IMG/VR virus record: IMGVR_UViG_3300025098_000174
Span: 1 to 32,003 of that record
Origin: a virus
DNA length: 32,003 bases
Strand: one strand, 5' to 3'
Numbering within the stretch: the stretch's first letter is position 1; the number at the start of each line of letters is the position of its first letter. Positions 13,726 to 25,195 of the stretch are shown here, piece after piece. Position numbers and translations under genes: made by a program. The notes beneath the pieces were generated by a model, which saw only the letters and a list, made by a program, of their open reading frames with translations, was not told where the DNA came from and ran no database searches.

Positions 13726-13752
13726 GCTAGGCTTCTTGCCTAGCTTTGTTCT
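13726..13752 (+). terminator. Hairpin between convergent operons
   Basis: GCTAGGC at 13726-13732 pairs with GCCTAGC at 13738-13744 around a TTCTT loop, followed by TTTGTTCTT. The T-rich side faces the rightward transcripts, so it acts best as their terminator. On the other strand the stem contains the stop codon of the leftward gene ending at 13740, and no T-run follows. Confidence 0.6.
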
Positions 13753-14378
13753 TCGAACTCATAAAAGAAATTAGTATCATCCCCTGCGGTGTACTTAGAT
13801 TTATTTTCCACACCATATTCAATAGTTGAAACCTTGTAGTCTGGGAACCTCATCTTCTTTGGGGATAAAGACTTATCGTAGAATATTACCCGATTGTTAG
13901 GCTGAGCGGCGAAATATCCGTTGTCTAATTGTATTATATTAAAGGACTTATGTTGTGTAGGTACCTCAGAATACCCAATATCTGGTATATTATATTCGGG
14001 ATGACAACTATCTATAGTATATAAATACTCCCCATAATAAAAATTCCCGTTTGGAGCCTTGTATTTACATTTCCCCGACCCTACACTCACCTTTTGTATA
14101 ACTGAGATGTGGTAGCTGAAACAGTCCCAAAGCTCTAGGTCTTCAAGTTCCATCTCTTCCTTCGTTTCTTTCCAAACAAAAGCCGAGATAGGAAGCTTAT
14201 CATATAGAGCTCCCGTCTCATAGAGATAGGTCTCAAAATATAATGCGCGACCTTGGATAGATTTTGCGGTGATCCATAACCCTGGTTCGTATTCACCGTG
14301 CCCCCTCTGAAAGTCATAAAGATATTCCTTCTTAACAAGGACTTCAACAGGCGGCACATTGGCTACTAGGAAAGCCAC
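13740..14378 (-). CDS. Conserved marine-phage protein of unknown function, 212 residues
   Basis: The frame begins with GTG at 14378, two bases after the endolysin stop, and has no strong ribosome site, so translation probably depends on coupling. The protein starts AFLVANVPPVEVLVKKEYLY and is rich in Tyr, Phe and Trp. It has many beta-like segments (GNFYYGEYLYTID; IIQLDNGYFAAQP) and an acidic C terminus. Its tyrosine-rich beta character would suit a small virion or cell-surface protein, but nothing specific is recognised. It is the last gene of the lysis operon. The repeated element at 14298-14305 encodes RGHG here, a frame unlike the other copies. Confidence 0.6.
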   Translation of the reverse strand: MAFLVANVPPVEVLVKKEYLYDFQRGHGEYEPGLWITAKSIQGRALYFETYLYETGALYDKLPISAFVWKETKEEMELEDLELWDCFSYHISVIQKVSVGSGKCKYKAPNGNFYYGEYLYTIDSCHPEYNIPDIGYSEVPTQHKSFNIIQLDNGYFAAQPNNRVIFYDKSLSPKKMRFPDYKVSTIEYGVENKSKYTAGDDTNFFYEFEEQS

Positions 14379-14826: not shown

Positions 14827-14939
14827 TATCTGCCTCCTATACCCCAATGAACTTCATGTTCATCTTTAGGTTTTTCTTTTTCAAATAGTTTATATACACT
14901 AGCGATAATCTTATATGTGAATATTTCTAATTGATACAT
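14826..14939 (-). CDS. 37-residue peptide inside the lysis cassette
   Basis: The frame is joined at both ends by one-base TAATG overlaps: to the holin stop at 14939-14941 and to the endolysin start at 14826. This argues strongly that ribosomes translate it. The first half is an amphipathic or weakly hydrophobic helix (LEIFTYKIIASVYKLF) and the second is charged, ending VHWGIGGR. The last codons supply the AGGAGG ribosome site of the endolysin. It could be a lysis-timing peptide or a relay that links holin and endolysin translation. No family is recognised. Confidence 0.55.
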   Translation of the reverse strand: MYQLEIFTYKIIASVYKLFEKEKPKDEHEVHWGIGGR

Positions 14940-15334
14940 TATTTCTTTTTAGTTATTAATCCCATAGCACCTTTAGCCCCTTTGATACCAAAGCTAGCTG
15001 AGCAGGCGATATATAATAAATGTTTATAGTAATCTGGTAGACTATGCAAGGCTTCAAACCCTGCTTTAATATGCGGTGTCCAACCAGGAATAAAAACTAG
15101 CACCGCTGGAATTAACAGGGCTAGTAAAATTACTTCATCTTTCCAGCTCCCTTTCATTTGATCTACAGCGGATGCTTCCCATCCAATCTTTCCTGCGATC
15201 TGTTGTTCCTTTAAACTTTTCTGTGCTTTTATTTCTGTTAAAGCTAAATCAGCTTTAGCTTTCTTAGTAGCTACAAATCCTTTAACTGTGTCTCCTAGTA
15301 GAGATGCCAGAGGACCTACTAATAAATTAAACAT
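14939..15334 (-). CDS. Holin, GTA-type three-transmembrane family (candidate)
   Basis: The 131-residue protein has an N-terminal hydrophobic segment (FNLLVGPLASLLGDTV), a Lys/Gln/Glu helix and then the motif WEASAVDQMKGSWKDE typical of the GTA_holin_3TM group. Two further hydrophobic segments follow (VILLALLIPAVLVFIPGW; HLLYIACSASFGI), and the end is Lys-rich. It would form the membrane lesion that releases the endolysin, whose gene lies just downstream beyond a 37-residue peptide. Family assignment is from motif memory. Its topology and neighbours agree. Confidence 0.8.
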   Translation of the reverse strand: MFNLLVGPLASLLGDTVKGFVATKKAKADLALTEIKAQKSLKEQQIAGKIGWEASAVDQMKGSWKDEVILLALLIPAVLVFIPGWTPHIKAGFEALHSLPDYYKHLLYIACSASFGIKGAKGAMGLITKKK

Positions 15335-15594
15335 TACGATACCTTCCTAAATTTTTTAGTTTTCTTTTTTATATTCTTTGGTTGCGATGCATGTTGTTTA
15401 CCAGCAGCTTTAGCTTTTCTTTTCGCAGCGGTAGTCGCTGCATATTCACCAGAGGATAAAGACTTGATAGCGGCAGATGGTAAATATCTTTCACCTGTAG
15501 CTTTTGGACCTTGAGTAGATGGCTTACCAGATTTAGTACGCCACTTCTGTTTGGTCCAAGCCTTTAAACTTTTCTGTGATTTAGTTAACGCCAT
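15334..15594 (-). CDS. Basic DUF5872-like protein
   Basis: The 86-residue protein starts ALTKSQKSLKAWTKQKWRTK and continues KSGKPSTQG...GERYLPSAAIKSL, the W...W.TksGkpS......RYLP pattern of DUF5872-like proteins that recur in marine phages. The C-terminal 35 residues are mostly Lys, Ala and Arg. The start at 15594 overlaps the upstream stop as TAATG, so the longer in-frame extension to 15831 is not used. It runs one base into the holin start. A structural or nucleic-acid-binding role fits its charge, but function is unknown. Confidence 0.7.
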   Translation of the reverse strand: MALTKSQKSLKAWTKQKWRTKSGKPSTQGPKATGERYLPSAAIKSLSSGEYAATTAAKRKAKAAGKQHASQPKNIKKKTKKFRKVS

Positions 15595-15752
15595 TACTTC
15601 TTCTTTGACTTTTGTATTTTTTCCTTTAGAAAATCGGGTAGCTTTTTCTGTTTTGCTGTCAATTTTCCAGCTGGTCCCATTGCTGGTTTTTTTGTTTTCT
15701 TTTTGGCAGGTCTCCCCACCTTGCTTCCGTATGTTCCTGGTCCCTTTGGCAT
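15594..15752 (-). CDS. 52-residue very basic protein
   Basis: ATG 15752 has an AAAGGAA ribosome site, and the product begins PKGPGTYGSKVGRPAKKKTKK. The upstream in-frame extension to 15797 lies inside the Cys-rich microprotein and is not needed. It ends by TAATG overlap with the next gene. Short proteins opening with KGxGTYGSKVGRP are frequent in marine phage genomes, where no role is established. The composition points to nucleic-acid binding. Confidence 0.65.
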   Translation of the reverse strand: MPKGPGTYGSKVGRPAKKKTKKPAMGPAGKLTAKQKKLPDFLKEKIQKSKKK

Positions 15753-15754
15753 TT

Positions 15755-15853
15755 TTATTCCTTTCCGTGTGCGCAATTTGCGCAACCACAATGGCATTGA
15801 GAGGAGTTACTGCAGTGACAATTGTGCCCACAAGATTTGCAAATTGATTCCAT
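15755..15853 (-). CDS. 32-residue Cys/His-rich metallothionein-like microprotein
   Basis: The frame runs from ATG 15853 to TAA 15755-15757, one base after the stop of the upstream gene (TAGGATG) and two bases before the next start. It encodes 8 Cys (residues 5, 8, 12, 14, 20, 22, 24, 27) and 4 His (10, 13, 21, 29) in 32 residues, in CxxC, CxC and CxCxC arrangements. These are the patterns of small metal-thiolate proteins. The aromatic residues are absent, as is usual for metallothioneins. A GGAGGT ribosome site lies 13 bases upstream, inside the preceding gene. It probably binds Zn, Cu or Fe-S, but the metal and purpose are unknown. The frame is too short for usual gene finders. Confidence 0.65.
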   Translation of the reverse strand: MESICKSCGHNCHCSNSSQCHCGCANCAHGKE

Positions 15854-15854
15854 C

Positions 15855-16049
15855 CTATGATTTGTAACCTCCGCCTTTTGATTTATATTGTTTGGCTAGC
15901 ATTTGTGCTTTGCGTGCTGACCACTGTCCTGGGGCTCCACCTTTTCCGCCAGCTTTTATTCTATTAAACAATGCCTTCCTCATACTAGGCTTAGTATAAT
16001 TACCTGCTTTGTTTACGGTAGATTTACTTTTTGTTTTTGACTTTATCAT
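15855..16049 (-). CDS. 64-residue basic Gly/Lys-rich phage protein
   Basis: The start chosen is ATG 16049 (ribosome site AAGG six bases upstream); the frame extends to 16064. The product contains STVNKAGNYTKPSMRKALFN, then IKAGGKGGAPGQWSARKAQM and ends YKSKGGGYKS. This sequence style (AGNYTKP.mRk.lF..IKAGgKGG.pGQWSARKAQ.LA..Y) recurs in marine phage genomes, usually in the neighbourhood of lysis genes. Function is unknown, and DNA or RNA binding is plausible. It overlaps the upstream gene by 26 bases. Confidence 0.75.
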   Translation of the reverse strand: MIKSKTKSKSTVNKAGNYTKPSMRKALFNRIKAGGKGGAPGQWSARKAQMLAKQYKSKGGGYKS

Positions 16050-17932: not shown

Positions 17933-20900
17933 CTATTGAGGGTTTGGGCTAGGGAAATCATACTCTACGCCCAGACCTTCTGCGTCTTTCAAATTTTGTT
18001 GTATGTTTGTGGAGCCACCTTTTAGAACTCTGTATTCTTTTGATAAATCTTTCATCGCTTCCATAGCTAATCTTTGCACATCAACATTCAATTGGTTTGT
18101 CCAATCTTGCCTAGAGTTGTATGCATATAATTCTATTAATAACTCTTTTAAATCCTCTTGACCTTCTAGCTGTGATTCAAAATCCTTTTTAATCATACCT
18201 AAAAATATTTTTCTGTAAGCGGTAGTAACTTTTCTATTCATTCTAGATTGTACTTGAGAATTTCTTCCAGAATTTAAACGTTCTAATCTAAGCAACTCTC
18301 TTTCCTTTGTAATTTTAGTAGGTGAAAAACCTATACCTTGTAAGAAAGCGTCATATAAAGTAGCGTCTTCAGTTAGCACTGTACCATATCTACTCTCTAC
18401 TCTACCATCTTCTGCAATATCATTTGCTTTCAATAAGTTAGTAAGAAACGTGGGGGTTACTGCATATGCTAATTCTTTCGCAGGAAATTCTCCTGTAGCT
18501 TCGTAAGCTTGTAGAATATTTCTAGCATTTTGGAAAAAAATAGCACCAGGTGCTCCTAAAAATTCTTCAGCTCTTGCTCCAGTATTTAATCCCATCATAC
18601 TCAAGACGGCTCTCATTTGTCCAGAACCTGGTACAGCTCCGAAAGATAATCTTCTTTGCACATCTACGTTTGCTAGAGTATTTATAATACCATTCTCAAA
18701 AAATTCTGCTACCTTAGGTCCCGATACTTCAGCTAGCATATTTCTAAACTCTGACCTTGAATCTCTATCTATTCCTGTTACTAACCTAGTTAATAAATCT
18801 TTAACCCAAAGAGCGTCATCCATGCCAGGCATACCAAAAAACCCACCAGTAATCATTATCATAACTAACATTTTAGCTAAAGCTTTTCTGCCCGCCGCTT
18901 TTTGCGCAGGTGTACCTTGCCTTAATAACATTCTAGTCATTAAGCTAAACATCTGACTTATGTAAGTTTGGAATAAAAAGAAAGCTGAACCCCAACCACG
19001 CATATATTGTGGTCTATTTAATTTACCGTACACACCAAAAGTTTCTTCTAATACTTGTTGCGCTACTATTCTAGGTGTAGCGACTCCGCCATTTCTATTT
19101 ACGTTTCCTCTAAAATCTGCGTCTGTATTAAAGAAGTTAACTGCGCTTTCCATGGCGTCTGGTTTTTGCATCATCCTGTGGGAGGCAATATATGCAGTTA
19201 AACGTGCAATTGTTTCGAAGGTATTAAAGACACCACCAATGACAGTGTTCTCAAATGTTCTTAGTGCCCTTTGTCTAATTTGGTTTTGGCTAACTGTGCC
19301 ACCACCTACAGGCATCCCTGCTTCGTGTGCTGCCATACCTTGTTTGATTGTACCATTATATATGTCAGCCATAGCATCTTCTCTGACATCTTCTGGTAAC
19401 TTATCAAAATTTAAGAACACATCTTCAAATTTTCTACCATTGAACACTAACATTTTTCTTACGTCATTAAATGCTTTCACTAACTCAACAGCTGCGGATT
19501 GTTTCTGCCCAGATATTGTGCTTAAAATTGGACCACTAAATTGTACAATACTCATTAGCTGTAAGAAAGCAGAAGATATATTACCTCCCAAATAATACCA
19601 GAAACCTAGCCTACGAATTTGGGCTAACTCTTGTTTTGGGTCCATAACATATTTGTACCACTTACTAGAAGCATCACGTAAACTAACATCTGCTTGCTTA
19701 GGATCTTGCGTACCTCGATAAGCGTCTGCTATAGTTTTATTGAATCTATTACCTGCCGCGAAGTTACTGCTGGCTAAACCGTATTGAGTCAACCCTCTTG
19801 CGAAATCAGTACTGTATCCTGGTATACCTCCCGACTGTTTACGCGGTTGTATGAAAGCACTGTATCCTTGGACTACACCATTAGTAATATCAGTACCTTT
19901 ATTTAAAGTTGTTTCTATTTCTTTTCTTATTTCATTATATTTTTCTTTATTAGTGTCTGATAAAAATTGTGCGGCTGCGTCTATAGTATTTAGATCAGCT
20001 TGAACATCTCTTCTTAAATCATTAATAGTAACAGGTTTAGTTCCTGATATAGTTACATCAGGGTTACCTCCGTATTTATTTTGTAATGCTTCTCTAACTT
20101 CTTTTTCTTCATCTTGTTTGACAACACCAAAGCGTACCTTATCAAACATTCTATAATCTACGGTTTTACCGTCTTTATCTTTTACGACAATGTAATGACT
20201 GCCGTATCTTTGTAGTGGTACATAGTCTGTCTTTGTGAAGTCATTATACTTTCTCAGCTCAGAAGTAAGTGCCAACAATCCAGTCCCAGGTGCCCCCTCT
20301 TTATCAGCCTGTCCTAGTAATGTATTTAATCTAGCAATAACACCTTGACCTTCTTTAGCAGTTAGCTGTAAGTTAATTAATATTTCCGCGTTATCACCCA
20401 CAGCTTCCTTAAAATCTTTTACAGCATTAGTTAATTGAAGTATGTCTGTGTAACTTAAATTTTCATAATCATTTTCAGTGAGCTCAGTAATTGATTTAGT
20501 ATTATTTAAAAATGTTTTAGCATCTACATCTATAGCATTTAAAGTTATTAAAGTCTGAATAGTATTTGATAATAAATCTGTAGCAGAATCATTAGCTAGT
20601 AAACCTCTAACGATTTCTTTGTGCATCATTTGTACAGCCTCTTGCACATTCTCATAAGCTTCCGCTAAGTCACCTTCCAATACTACAACTTCTCCTGCTT
20701 TTACTGTACTATCTCCGCCATCTCCATTTCTCTCAGCTCTAAAAATTATTTGACCATTCTCATTCATCCTGTAACGACCCTTAACTTGCTGAGATATTTC
20801 TAATGCTTTATTAATTAGTTTAGCATACTCTGGATTACGCATTACTTTCATAAACTTTTTACTTAAGGTTGCTACGAATTGACTTTGTAATTCTCTAGAC

Positions 20901-23900
20901 TTTTGATCACGTGAACTTACAGCACTAAATAGCTTTTCAAACACAGGATATTTTTTAGCCCATACTCTGGCGTGGGAAAATATACGCGCAGGTGTGCCAA
21001 TACTTTCAGGTGAGGCTGTATTTGTTTCATCTGCTCGTGATTCTCTAGCAATGTCATTTTCCATTTGTCGAGTAGAGGATCTTAAACTTTGGCGTGTGCC
21101 TGGTATATACTTATCTATCTCTGGGGAAGATGGTTCATCAATATATTCTTGGCTGTAGTTGTATCCTGGTTGCGATTCTGGTATGTCAGTAATAGCAACA
21201 AATGGAGTTCGTCTTTGTTTAATTTTTGTTGAAGGGCTACGTTTCTCTAAACTTTGTTGGGTGTTATTCGCTATAGTATTATTTAATACTAAACGTTTAC
21301 GCTCTTGCATTCTTCTTTTAAATTCTCCGTTATCAATTGCATCGAATAATTGAGCAGGATTTGTATAACCTGTTTTAAATAGTGCTCTTGATAAGCCTAA
21401 GAAGAAAGCTTTTAATCTTTCAAATACTTTCGCCAGCCTACCTTTTGGAACATACTTCTTGTTAATATAAGCACCAAATGCTGCAGTAATACCTTCTTCT
21501 ATAATTATGTCTTCAGTCATGCCAGGCAAACCACTATAGTTTTTTCTAACATTAAAAGCATCTACCCAATGTTTCTTAGAAAATTCTTTTAACATGTTAA
21601 GCTCTTTGTCTGTAAACAAACCACTTCTAAACATGGCGTGCATTGCTTCATGTCTAAGTGTTACCATCAAACTATTCAATCTGCTCTCGTATGATAGATT
21701 ATCATACTTCTTACCTAGCACTTCTATGACTTGAGGATTCTGAAAATCCATAGCTTCTGTTGCAACATCGTAAGTGCCAATAAATTTGCCTAGTCTAGTT
21801 CTAGAGTTATCTAACCACCTATTGAGGATAGCCAGGTTGACATAGTCTAATCCCATATTATCTAACTCAGCACGCATCGCTAGATAAATACGCATTAAAT
21901 CCTTCTCAGCTTCTTTTGTAAACTGAGCTTTCTCTTCCTGTGTTTCTAGATAACCAACAACACCCAAGTCATTAATACTGTTTACTAATTGATCTGGGTT
22001 GTAGTCATCATCTCTTTTAAATATTCTACCAAGTTTTACTTCACCATTATTATATACAAAACCACCAATATCTAAATCTAGATTAGTTAACATTTCTGGA
22101 TTACCGTCCATATTATCTATAACCAAATCTTGAGTCTCGATACCTGCTTCTTGAATAATTCCTACAAAATCTCCGTAGTCTCTTCTGCCTTTATACCCTG
22201 GTATAGTTGTATCATAAAATAAAGCTTTTAAATTTTCGTCACGTATTTCTATCTGAATTGGTATGGGTTTGTCTGGATTTAATCTGCTAGCATATACTGC
22301 TCGATGTCTTCCTTCGTGCCCTGTAACACTTAGGATTGGATTACCCGCATCTGTGTAACGTAACTTTAATCTTAAATACGGTGGAGTAATACCATTTTGG
22401 GCACCCTTACCATATTGTTCTTGTAATTGATTTTGACGCTCTATGCTTGTGTCAGCCCCACTAGTGGCTAATCGTAAAAATACACTAGGCTTGAGATATA
22501 AAAACGCAGACTTACCCCCATCCAGCGTGCCCCCTGGGATTGAGCCAGATCCTGTATTCCAGAATGTATGCCCTACAGTTCCCCAGTAAGTTTTATTTTG
22601 TAATGCTTTAATCTTGTTGTCATTAATTTCTCGGCGTAATTCACCTTGTGCTCTAGTAGTAGAATCATCTACAGAATAAACTTCTATAGGTTTGATAATT
22701 GGTTTCTCTTTTGTTCCTTGATAAAGCGCGCGAATTTTGCCTTTGTTTGGGAAAGACTTTTGTGTTATTCTGTTTAGCTGTTGCCTTGTTAAAGGTTTAT
22801 AACCGAAAGAAGTATACAACACATTAAAGTTTTTTAAGTCTCCTTCTGCTCTATTAATCAAAGCTTGGAATCTATTTATTTCTGCAGCTCTATCTTCTTC
22901 TGTAATTCCTTTTCTTTTACGCAATCCTTCAATCGCTTTTTTGTAACCTTCAATTGCCGCGGGTGTGTGGTTTTCTTGCCCAATTCTATTAGCAAGTATT
23001 TGCATATCATAATACCTGTCTCGCGCTTCTTGTTGCATCACATCGCCAGATGCCTCATTTAAAACATCTCTGTAGCTAAGTAGCTCTTGCCTTTTCTCTT
23101 CCGTTAGTTTAGGATTTCTAAGCTGTTCGCTTACTTTAGATATTTCTTTAGCTAATTTCTCATCTGCTTGATTAACAATTTCTTCCTGAGGGACGGGGGG
23201 CACGGCGGGTGTAGTTCCGACTTGCTCTCTAATAGGTGAGGTACGCGGTTTATTTTCTACCTTGTTGTTTATTATTTCTTCTAAGATTTCACGTCCAGCA
23301 GTTTTGCCAGTCTTTTTATTTACAGATGTATTCTCTTGTATTTCTTTTAATGTTGCTGGAGTATAAATAGCACGTGGTCCACCACGTGGAACTTCTAAAG
23401 AAAATTCACCTTCTATCTCTTGTAAGTAACCAAGCTGACCTAGCTGTTGTATTTCTTCTGGTGTTAAATAATTGGAACCACTTTCTACTTCATGTGATAA
23501 AGCCCTTGGTCCTTGCGCTTCAATTAATTCCATTTGCGAATCTGTATATCCTCTACCTCTTAAGATGTTCATGAGCTTTTCTCTTTTCTTATCAGTTAGA
23601 GGTTTTACATTTATCTTTTCATAATCTTCTCTCTTATCAAATACAGGGGTTTGTTCAACCTCACCTGTTTGGGGATCAACAGTATCTGCTTTCTTATCTT
23701 CTGTCGGCTTTTTTATTATATTTAAACTATCTAATACACTTATATCTGTTTCAACGAAAGTATTTTTAGCACCAGGTGTTAAGTCTTTTAGAAAAACTTT
23801 CCTTTGACCACCCCGATCGTACGTTCCTATTACTTGGAATTGAGGTGTAACAATATTACCATCCTCATCTACTATATCATTGTCATCAATATCTTTACTA

Positions 23901-25195
23901 GAACTTATACCTGTAACAGTATAGGTATTGTTTGTATAATCTTCACCTAACTTGTCTATTACAACAGGGTCTTTATCATCATTAGTTCTGTTGTCTTGAT
24001 AAGCTTTAGAATCTTTAGCATCAATATTTTTAATATCACTTATTTGATAACTTTTTACAATACCACCAGTAATACCAAATGGTCCACCACCCGCAGCACC
24101 AGCACCTGCTGATTCACCAACTCTTTTATAAAAATCTTTGTCAGTGTACAAGTCGGATAAAGATGCAATTATTTCTTGGTCAGTGTCAAGAGCTTTTTCA
24201 ATTACTCCAGCAGATTCTACAAGAGCTTCCTGTGTTCCTTCAGCCAATGATTCGCCTGCTATTGACTTACCTGTTTCTTTGCCAATGGTTTTGGATGTAG
24301 ACTGTTTTAATAATTTATCTATGCCTTTGCGCGTAGCTTCTTTACCAAACTTTTGATAAAGCATTCTTTGTAATATACTACCAGCACCTAATAAATATTC
24401 AGTTGCCGCGTATGGTACACCAATAGCTAAAGATAATCCTGCGTTTGCTTTTTCAAAATCTGTAGCTTCTAGCTGTGCTATTCTGGAATCACCCACACCC
24501 ATACCGTAAGCCATACCTACGCCAAGTGCAGGGTTAACCATACTAGCAGCGAAGATGGGTATAGTAGTGACAAGACCTTGCCCAACATTGAATCCTAGCC
24601 AATCAAAGAAATGCGCGGCTCTATCCTCTTCAGTTAATATCTTTTCAATAGATGCTTCAAAAGGAATAACTTCACCATCTTTGGTTTTGATAAACTGATC
24701 TGCCATCCCTTGTATTTGATATCTTTGGATAGCATCATTGGTGGCTTTCTCTAAGTCTTCCATGCCTAAAACATCAGCCACAGTTCCGAGTGCCCCCGCT
24801 CCTATCTGTTTAAGACCAGCCCATCCACCTTTCAAACCTTTTGTAAATGCAGTATCATCTAAGTCGTTGGGGTTGTCATAGCGTTCAGCTCCAATACCAA
24901 ACTTATATATGTAACCTTGGTTAAATAAGTTTTGCTCTAGTTTAGGATTTTTTAAGTACGCTTGTACTTCTTCTTTTGTAGCGTCTTTAGGAACTGCCAT
25001 GCGAGGACCATTCGGGTCATCAGATAATAATATATATTTTAAATTTTCGGGAGATGAATCAGCCATTTGTTTTAGCTGTTCACTTGTAGGTTTAGGAGGA
25101 GCGGCGATTCCTTGTGAAGCTATGGCAGAACTTTTAGCTAGTATATTAGCTATGTTGGAATCACTTATAGGTTTATATGTTACTTCTTCTGCCAT
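17933..25195 (-). CDS. Giant 2420-residue polyvalent virion protein, probably ejected into the host
   Basis: The protein combines several parts. Hydrophobic segments lie near residues 195-270 (VTTIPIFAASMVNPALGVGM). A GHEGRHR motif has His960. A metallopeptidase-like helix LRHEAMHAMF has HEAMH at 1182-1186. Long charged coiled regions follow, and a C-terminal membrane-like domain at about 2060-2125 includes SAFFLFQTYISQMFSLM. This last part fits LPD38-type large polyvalent-protein domains. Such proteins sit inside the capsid or tail of podovirus-like particles, are ejected with the DNA and may form a trans-envelope conduit or modify the host. The length exceeds T7 gp16 (about 1300) by far. 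No clear ribosome site precedes ATG 25195; two hairpins do. Four copies of the repeated element lie inside (20290, 22527, 23196, 24790). Confidence 0.8.
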   Translation of the reverse strand: MAEEVTYKPISDSNIANILAKSSAIASQGIAAPPKPTSEQLKQMADSSPENLKYILLSDDPNGPRMAVPKDATKEEVQAYLKNPKLEQNLFNQGYIYKFGIGAERYDNPNDLDDTAFTKGLKGGWAGLKQIGAGALGTVADVLGMEDLEKATNDAIQRYQIQGMADQFIKTKDGEVIPFEASIEKILTEEDRAAHFFDWLGFNVGQGLVTTIPIFAASMVNPALGVGMAYGMGVGDSRIAQLEATDFEKANAGLSLAIGVPYAATEYLLGAGSILQRMLYQKFGKEATRKGIDKLLKQSTSKTIGKETGKSIAGESLAEGTQEALVESAGVIEKALDTDQEIIASLSDLYTDKDFYKRVGESAGAGAAGGGPFGITGGIVKSYQISDIKNIDAKDSKAYQDNRTNDDKDPVVIDKLGEDYTNNTYTVTGISSSKDIDDNDIVDEDGNIVTPQFQVIGTYDRGGQRKVFLKDLTPGAKNTFVETDISVLDSLNIIKKPTEDKKADTVDPQTGEVEQTPVFDKREDYEKINVKPLTDKKREKLMNILRGRGYTDSQMELIEAQGPRALSHEVESGSNYLTPEEIQQLGQLGYLQEIEGEFSLEVPRGGPRAIYTPATLKEIQENTSVNKKTGKTAGREILEEIINNKVENKPRTSPIREQVGTTPAVPPVPQEEIVNQADEKLAKEISKVSEQLRNPKLTEEKRQELLSYRDVLNEASGDVMQQEARDRYYDMQILANRIGQENHTPAAIEGYKKAIEGLRKRKGITEEDRAAEINRFQALINRAEGDLKNFNVLYTSFGYKPLTRQQLNRITQKSFPNKGKIRALYQGTKEKPIIKPIEVYSVDDSTTRAQGELRREINDNKIKALQNKTYWGTVGHTFWNTGSGSIPGGTLDGGKSAFLYLKPSVFLRLATSGADTSIERQNQLQEQYGKGAQNGITPPYLRLKLRYTDAGNPILSVTGHEGRHRAVYASRLNPDKPIPIQIEIRDENLKALFYDTTIPGYKGRRDYGDFVGIIQEAGIETQDLVIDNMDGNPEMLTNLDLDIGGFVYNNGEVKLGRIFKRDDDYNPDQLVNSINDLGVVGYLETQEEKAQFTKEAEKDLMRIYLAMRAELDNMGLDYVNLAILNRWLDNSRTRLGKFIGTYDVATEAMDFQNPQVIEVLGKKYDNLSYESRLNSLMVTLRHEAMHAMFRSGLFTDKELNMLKEFSKKHWVDAFNVRKNYSGLPGMTEDIIIEEGITAAFGAYINKKYVPKGRLAKVFERLKAFFLGLSRALFKTGYTNPAQLFDAIDNGEFKRRMQERKRLVLNNTIANNTQQSLEKRSPSTKIKQRRTPFVAITDIPESQPGYNYSQEYIDEPSSPEIDKYIPGTRQSLRSSTRQMENDIARESRADETNTASPESIGTPARIFSHARVWAKKYPVFEKLFSAVSSRDQKSRELQSQFVATLSKKFMKVMRNPEYAKLINKALEISQQVKGRYRMNENGQIIFRAERNGDGGDSTVKAGEVVVLEGDLAEAYENVQEAVQMMHKEIVRGLLANDSATDLLSNTIQTLITLNAIDVDAKTFLNNTKSITELTENDYENLSYTDILQLTNAVKDFKEAVGDNAEILINLQLTAKEGQGVIARLNTLLGQADKEGAPGTGLLALTSELRKYNDFTKTDYVPLQRYGSHYIVVKDKDGKTVDYRMFDKVRFGVVKQDEEKEVREALQNKYGGNPDVTISGTKPVTINDLRRDVQADLNTIDAAAQFLSDTNKEKYNEIRKEIETTLNKGTDITNGVVQGYSAFIQPRKQSGGIPGYSTDFARGLTQYGLASSNFAAGNRFNKTIADAYRGTQDPKQADVSLRDASSKWYKYVMDPKQELAQIRRLGFWYYLGGNISSAFLQLMSIVQFSGPILSTISGQKQSAAVELVKAFNDVRKMLVFNGRKFEDVFLNFDKLPEDVREDAMADIYNGTIKQGMAAHEAGMPVGGGTVSQNQIRQRALRTFENTVIGGVFNTFETIARLTAYIASHRMMQKPDAMESAVNFFNTDADFRGNVNRNGGVATPRIVAQQVLEETFGVYGKLNRPQYMRGWGSAFFLFQTYISQMFSLMTRMLLRQGTPAQKAAGRKALAKMLVMIMITGGFFGMPGMDDALWVKDLLTRLVTGIDRDSRSEFRNMLAEVSGPKVAEFFENGIINTLANVDVQRRLSFGAVPGSGQMRAVLSMMGLNTGARAEEFLGAPGAIFFQNARNILQAYEATGEFPAKELAYAVTPTFLTNLLKANDIAEDGRVESRYGTVLTEDATLYDAFLQGIGFSPTKITKERELLRLERLNSGRNSQVQSRMNRKVTTAYRKIFLGMIKKDFESQLEGQEDLKELLIELYAYNSRQDWTNQLNVDVQRLAMEAMKDLSKEYRVLKGGSTNIQQNLKDAEGLGVEYDFPSPNPQ

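Follow-up and report, generated by a model that had tools for sequence, protein, structure and literature searches.

A predicted metallothionein-like, virus-restricted microprotein encoded in the lysis module of a marine tailed phage

The lysis module of the viral DNA analysed here raises the question of what a phage would do with a 32-aa protein of which one residue in four is a cysteine. The window, the whole 32,003-nucleotide stretch that was analysed (IMG/VR record IMGVR_UViG_3300025098_000174), is, judging by its proteins, a fragment of an HMO-2011-like marine tailed phage, since its 131-aa protein has relatives in Puniceispirillum phage HMO-2011 and in Roseobacter phages CRP-901 and CRP-902. 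Our translation placed the microprotein ORF (15755-15853, 32 aa) on the minus strand, where it runs from 15853 to 15755 and reads MESICKSCGHNCHCSNSSQCHCGCANCAHGKE*. The eight Cys and four His that the first-pass annotation had counted, with the Cys arranged as CxxC, CxC and CxCxC (25% Cys), are all present in this minus-strand translation; that annotation named no strand. The plus-strand reading of 15755-15853 (LFLSVCAICAT...) was rejected.

The gene is packed as tightly as had been claimed. Upstream, the phrog_17747 gene, of unknown function (15855-16049, minus strand; E 9e-36; ending ..KGGGYKS), has its stop at 15855, leaving a gap of one base, while the ATG of the downstream gene lies at 15752, after a gap of two bases. 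This downstream gene encodes a 52-aa basic protein (15594-15752, minus strand), and its start is supported because the relatives begin with the conserved MPxGxGTYG; the alternative in-frame ATG at 15797, which overlaps the microprotein ORF, is not the conserved start and was rejected. Next in the minus-strand order are an 86-aa basic protein of phrog_14910 (15334-15594, minus strand; E 9e-34), the 131-aa holin-like protein of phrog_2524 (14939-15334, minus strand), with relatives in HMO-2011 and in Pseudomonas PA11 (ORF031/DUF3154), and a phage lysozyme or endolysin of PF00959 (14380-14847, minus strand; E 1.2e-11). The lysozyme and the holin-like protein confirm the lysis setting proposed in the first-pass annotation. 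A 212-aa protein (13740-14378, minus strand) matched phrog_3704 (E 1e-88), which carries the label 'ferredoxin'; for this protein we found neither a Pfam match nor any obvious Fe-S Cys cluster, and the label may be wrong. Also near the lysis module, a 2420-aa ORF (17933-25195, minus strand) probably encodes a giant virion protein.

The microprotein is a real protein-coding gene under strong purifying selection. In support of this, the orthologues at the same locus (L013, L209, L211, L239, L246, L259 and L296) keep the frame, every Cys and also the conserved His. Pairwise dN was 0.02-0.09 between the window and these orthologues and reached 0.11 between orthologues, well below dS, which ranged from about 0.1 to more than 1 and was saturated for the window compared with L259. 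Across the family the median dN/dS was 0.085, with all values below 1 (n=137 pairs among the matches listed); note that these pairs were restricted to an identical Cys layout, which lowers dN somewhat. At the invariant Cys, His, Gly and Ser, synonymous codons vary freely. A chance or non-coding frame could be entertained, as the ORF is very short and the density of TGY codons leaves some other frames open, but this conservation refutes it: dN/dS lies well below 1, the ligands are invariant and the peptide recurs in many viral neighbourhoods, and 300 windows simulated with a first-order Markov model of the real one contained a single comparable ORF (20-40 aa, 8 or more Cys). We therefore consider the chance of such a frame negligible. 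The first-pass annotation had expected a genuine gene to keep its frame and its Cys positions at this locus in related phages; among the orthologues the frame is unbroken and the Cys do not vary freely, and this check therefore did not refute the gene. Many other relatives have a different gene there.

These other genes define the character of the locus. In HMO-2011, the interval between phrog_17747 and phrog_14910 contains a gene annotated as the methanesulfonate monooxygenase alpha subunit (L398:3886-4968), which points to a cargo slot in this part of the module. In L126, L132, L150, L158 and L178 the slot is occupied by a conserved 30-aa basic IKxCxC microprotein, such as MKIIKKIICKLFHIKQCECKKPKTKKQRRM, whose gene overlaps the stop of the upstream phrog_17747 gene by 4 bases, and further relatives carry various other genes or an unrelated, acidic, Cys-rich microprotein. 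We rejected the idea that the lysis module always includes the 32-aa protein, since relatives carry other genes in the slot. Because the interval is a cargo slot in the phage group of the window, the microprotein gene is accessory and exchangeable, and it is not universal at the locus.

By its motif, the 32-aa protein belongs to a previously unnamed family of tiny proteins that occurs across many unrelated viral genomes and has the pattern CxxCGHxCHCSNxxxC(x0-4)CxCxxCx[H/C]. Two scans of viral contigs with degenerate DNA motifs each returned at least 119 stretches, which after translation gave at least 80 distinct proteins of an SNG subfamily (consensus xCKNCGHxCHCSNGGSCxxCxCxNCEH) and at least 66 broader relatives. 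Since the second scan fixed CGHxCHC[ST]N...C, the independent evidence comes from the first Cys, the distal CxCxxC and the terminal position only. The first Cys and the distal CxCxxC were each present in 80 of 81 members among the matches listed; of the exceptions, one peptide has its start within the motif and the other is cut by a contig end. The last ligand position was His in 65 and Cys in 15 of the matches listed, with no other residue, the swap expected of a metal ligand. The family thus has eight invariant Cys, together with two invariant His in CGHxCHC, a block that the search pattern partly fixed. From the first to the last Cys, 80 members averaged 35% Cys and 9% His, and V, I, L, M, F, Y and W together made up about 2%. 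Among the matches listed for the broader relatives (L001-L119) there were 66 distinct CxxCGHxCHC microproteins, many ending in ...PDCxxCxNDVCxxCxC and some on contigs of over 80 kb, which together would form a wider, putative viral superfamily.

Where, then, does this family occur? It spans at least eight neighbourhoods, including lysis, portal and T4-like baseplate regions: members lie near the T4-like baseplate wedge gene gp25 (L205, L225), adjoin portal genes (L234, L201), stand beside the phrog_2524 holin-like gene or occur in RNR-carrying HMO-like contigs, and the intergenic distances around them are near-zero or overlapping. None of 84,980 prokaryote genomes (257 Gb) contained the strict motif. 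The loose motif had 19 matches there, one of them in a long protein with a zinc-binding-type stretch, and none of these continues into a Cys-rich peptide of the family kind. The family profile matched none of 385 genomes from the alphaproteobacterial class of an uncultured Rhodobacteraceae genome, a group without a positive genome, and matched 10 of 10 viral records tested. A host-derived (auxiliary) origin is therefore unsupported, no genuine member having been found in the 84,980 prokaryote genomes by motif or in the 385 by profile. As judged by these motif and profile searches, the family is virus-restricted within the genomes searched.

Cultured relatives were reached via neighbouring genes. 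The closest isolate to the T4-like contig L205 is HTVC008M, whose gp25 is 79% identical, and at the T4-like locus of the SAR11 phages HTVC008M (AGE60383.1, 40 aa) and Mosig (QOI69074.1, 45 aa) relatives of the family are annotated as 'hypothetical'. These proteins sit upstream of gp25, the same position as the metagenomic members, and share the CxxCGHxxHC or CxxCGHxCHC start and the distal Cys cluster; they differ in having a longer linker (40-45 aa in all) and fall outside the SNG subfamily. Their annotation weakens the earlier claim that standard gene callers would miss such a gene. Against the phage collection, tblastn with the 32-mer and with a 39-aa relative gave no match, and with a 44-aa relative only three weak, unrelated ones; BLAST performs poorly with short Cys-rich queries.

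We then compared the protein with known families. Pfam hmmscan of the microprotein returned no family, zinc-finger models and Fe-S families included, PHROGs returned no match for the ORF or the close relatives tested, and NCBIfam had no family model, with only a weak, irrelevant dapD match for one relative. The bacterial metallothionein model PF02069 had no match in the window at E<=10, while four control genomes matched, one of them over the cut-off. Searching the PDB with the family profile (hmmsearch, E<=10) retrieved only two chains, both metallothioneins (2mrb and 1dft; E 5 and 9, not significant). An AlphaFold2 model made without metal had no regular secondary structure (pLDDT 68) and is uninformative about the fold. 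By reading the sequence, we found no hydrophobic transmembrane or signal-like stretch in the 32 aa, and a holin or membrane lysis effector was rejected for want of a hydrophobic segment.

Since neither PF02069 nor any other Pfam, PHROG or NCBIfam model matches, we name the protein metallothionein-like and not a metallothionein, even though, as far as its sequence tells, it would work like one. It is small, has Cys-dense CxC and CxxC arrays, few aromatic or hydrophobic residues and conserved ligand positions, and its Cys content falls within the range of about 15-35% that was applied. The metallothionein-like composition claimed in the first-pass annotation holds up in this respect, with 8 Cys in 32 aa (25%), 35% Cys in the family core and almost no hydrophobics. 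SmtA coordinates Zn4 through Cys9His2 and contains a CGHxxCxC segment. Like BmtA and SmtA (PF02069), the phage proteins are small and Cys/His-rich, and the short members ending in CxC have nine core Cys and two invariant His; unlike them, they are mostly shorter (29-45 aa), lack a hydrophobic core, space their Cys differently and are restricted to viruses, where they lie in late gene clusters. The eukaryotic domains 2mrb (MT-2A) and 1dft (MT-1) are likewise Cys-dense, CxC-rich and about 30 aa long, but they lack conserved His ligands, and the E values of 5-9 are likely composition-driven.

Taken together, the composition, the His/Cys exchange, the lack of predicted secondary structure in the metal-free model and the non-significant PDB metallothioneins suggest a metal-thiolate cluster in a chain that has no independent core. 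Our preferred reading, to which we give a probability of about 0.58, is that the ORF encodes a phage-restricted, metallothionein-like peptide, predicted to bind Zn or Cu, that is made late and buffers metal. This peptide would use 8-9 core Cys together with 2-3 His, at most 11 ligands, to enclose either several Cu(I) or between two and four Zn(II) in a thiolate/imidazole cluster; lacking a hydrophobic core, the chain would owe its fold to the metal. Two to four Zn(II) can reasonably be expected for each peptide, as the 8-9 core Cys and 2-3 conserved His resemble the Cys9His2 of SmtA. Late production would come about by translational coupling, which the placement with lysis and structural genes at near-zero or overlapping intergenic distances suggests. 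The microprotein may then buffer metal freed by the turnover of host proteins, or secure scarce metal for the infected cell. Counting against this reading, many relatives do without the gene and there is no significant similarity to any metallothionein.

Also against the preferred reading, the strict CGHxCHCSN block, which is more rigid than most metallothioneins, could mean a specific structured Zn site that binds a partner. An unlikely but credible alternative is a small structural zinc protein of the knuckle or ribbon kind (CxxCGH ... CxxCxH), using one or two Zn(II) for folding and not as a metal buffer, which would have a specific binding partner, either a protein of host or phage or a nucleic acid, in host takeover, anti-defence or regulation of lysis. 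CxxCG is a typical zinc-knuckle turn, and the phage proteins resemble zinc-ribbon and zinc-knuckle proteins in this first knuckle and in the CxxC(x)H end. Moreover, the CGHxCHCSN block recurs in unrelated contexts, though partly fixed by the search pattern, and CxxCGHxCHC is also found in broader relatives with longer, less Cys-dense chains. However, the phage family carries additional CHC...CxC ligands, and one or two structural sites would not call for 8-11 Cys in a chain of about 30 aa. Between the ligands there are almost no hydrophobic or aromatic residues, unlike in zinc ribbons, and no Pfam or NCBIfam zinc-finger model matches.

We regard as improbable a minor virion component or assembly factor that travels with structural genes. 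The members near T4-like gp25, the portal and other structural genes would fit such a role, but members also lie inside lysis modules, as in the window, the absence of the gene from many close relatives at the locus argues that it is not generally needed for assembly, and the parts of the literature that we consulted gave no proteomic evidence. About equally improbable, in our view, is a thiol redox or disulfide peptide, or else a carrier of Fe-S, that responds to the redox changes at lysis. Such a peptide would account for the high Cys density and the CxxC and CxC motifs; against it stand the lack of a signal-like hydrophobic segment for export, the lack of a match to any known Fe-S family, and the last-position His/Cys exchange and conserved His, which argue for metal ligation.

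A second Cys-rich microprotein family, with the pattern CxTCECYxCDCEECxCxCH, is unrelated in sequence, 34-50 aa long and mostly acidic in its tail. It is represented by L318:2966-3079 and also found in L411, L422, L449, L482, L483, L496 and L501, and, where the flanking sequence is long enough, most of its loci fall between the phrog_17747 gene and the lysozyme gene of related phages; the one member tested had no Pfam or PHROG match. The broader proposal, that the 32-aa protein represents a virus-exclusive metallothionein family exchanged between marine phages that are not related to one another (HMO-2011-like, T4-like and other tailed phages) in late-cluster cargo slots, is tentative, and we put it a little short of an even chance. 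If it is true, then this family and the CxTCECY microprotein together would mean that metal buffers dedicated to the final stage of infection evolve time and again in phages of metal-poor seawater.

In the open-licence literature we found no relevant paper on a phage, viral or bacteriophage metallothionein, and term searches of the papers on HMO-2011-type phages, pelagimyophages and phage small proteins turned up no mention of such a protein. A need for metal buffering in seawater is plausible, given that marine Synechococcus store zinc with a cellular metallothionein (PMC9337993), a different protein from the phage microprotein. The family has no Pfam, PHROG or NCBIfam model, yet it is recurrent in many viral contigs, and cultured SAR11 phages carry relatives. 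Since HTVC008M and Mosig are isolates on a culturable host, the question is directly testable. If the predicted metal binding is true, phages would play an active part in managing Zn or Cu around lysis, and this would affect the recycling of trace metals in the ocean and the handling of metal stress in infected cells.
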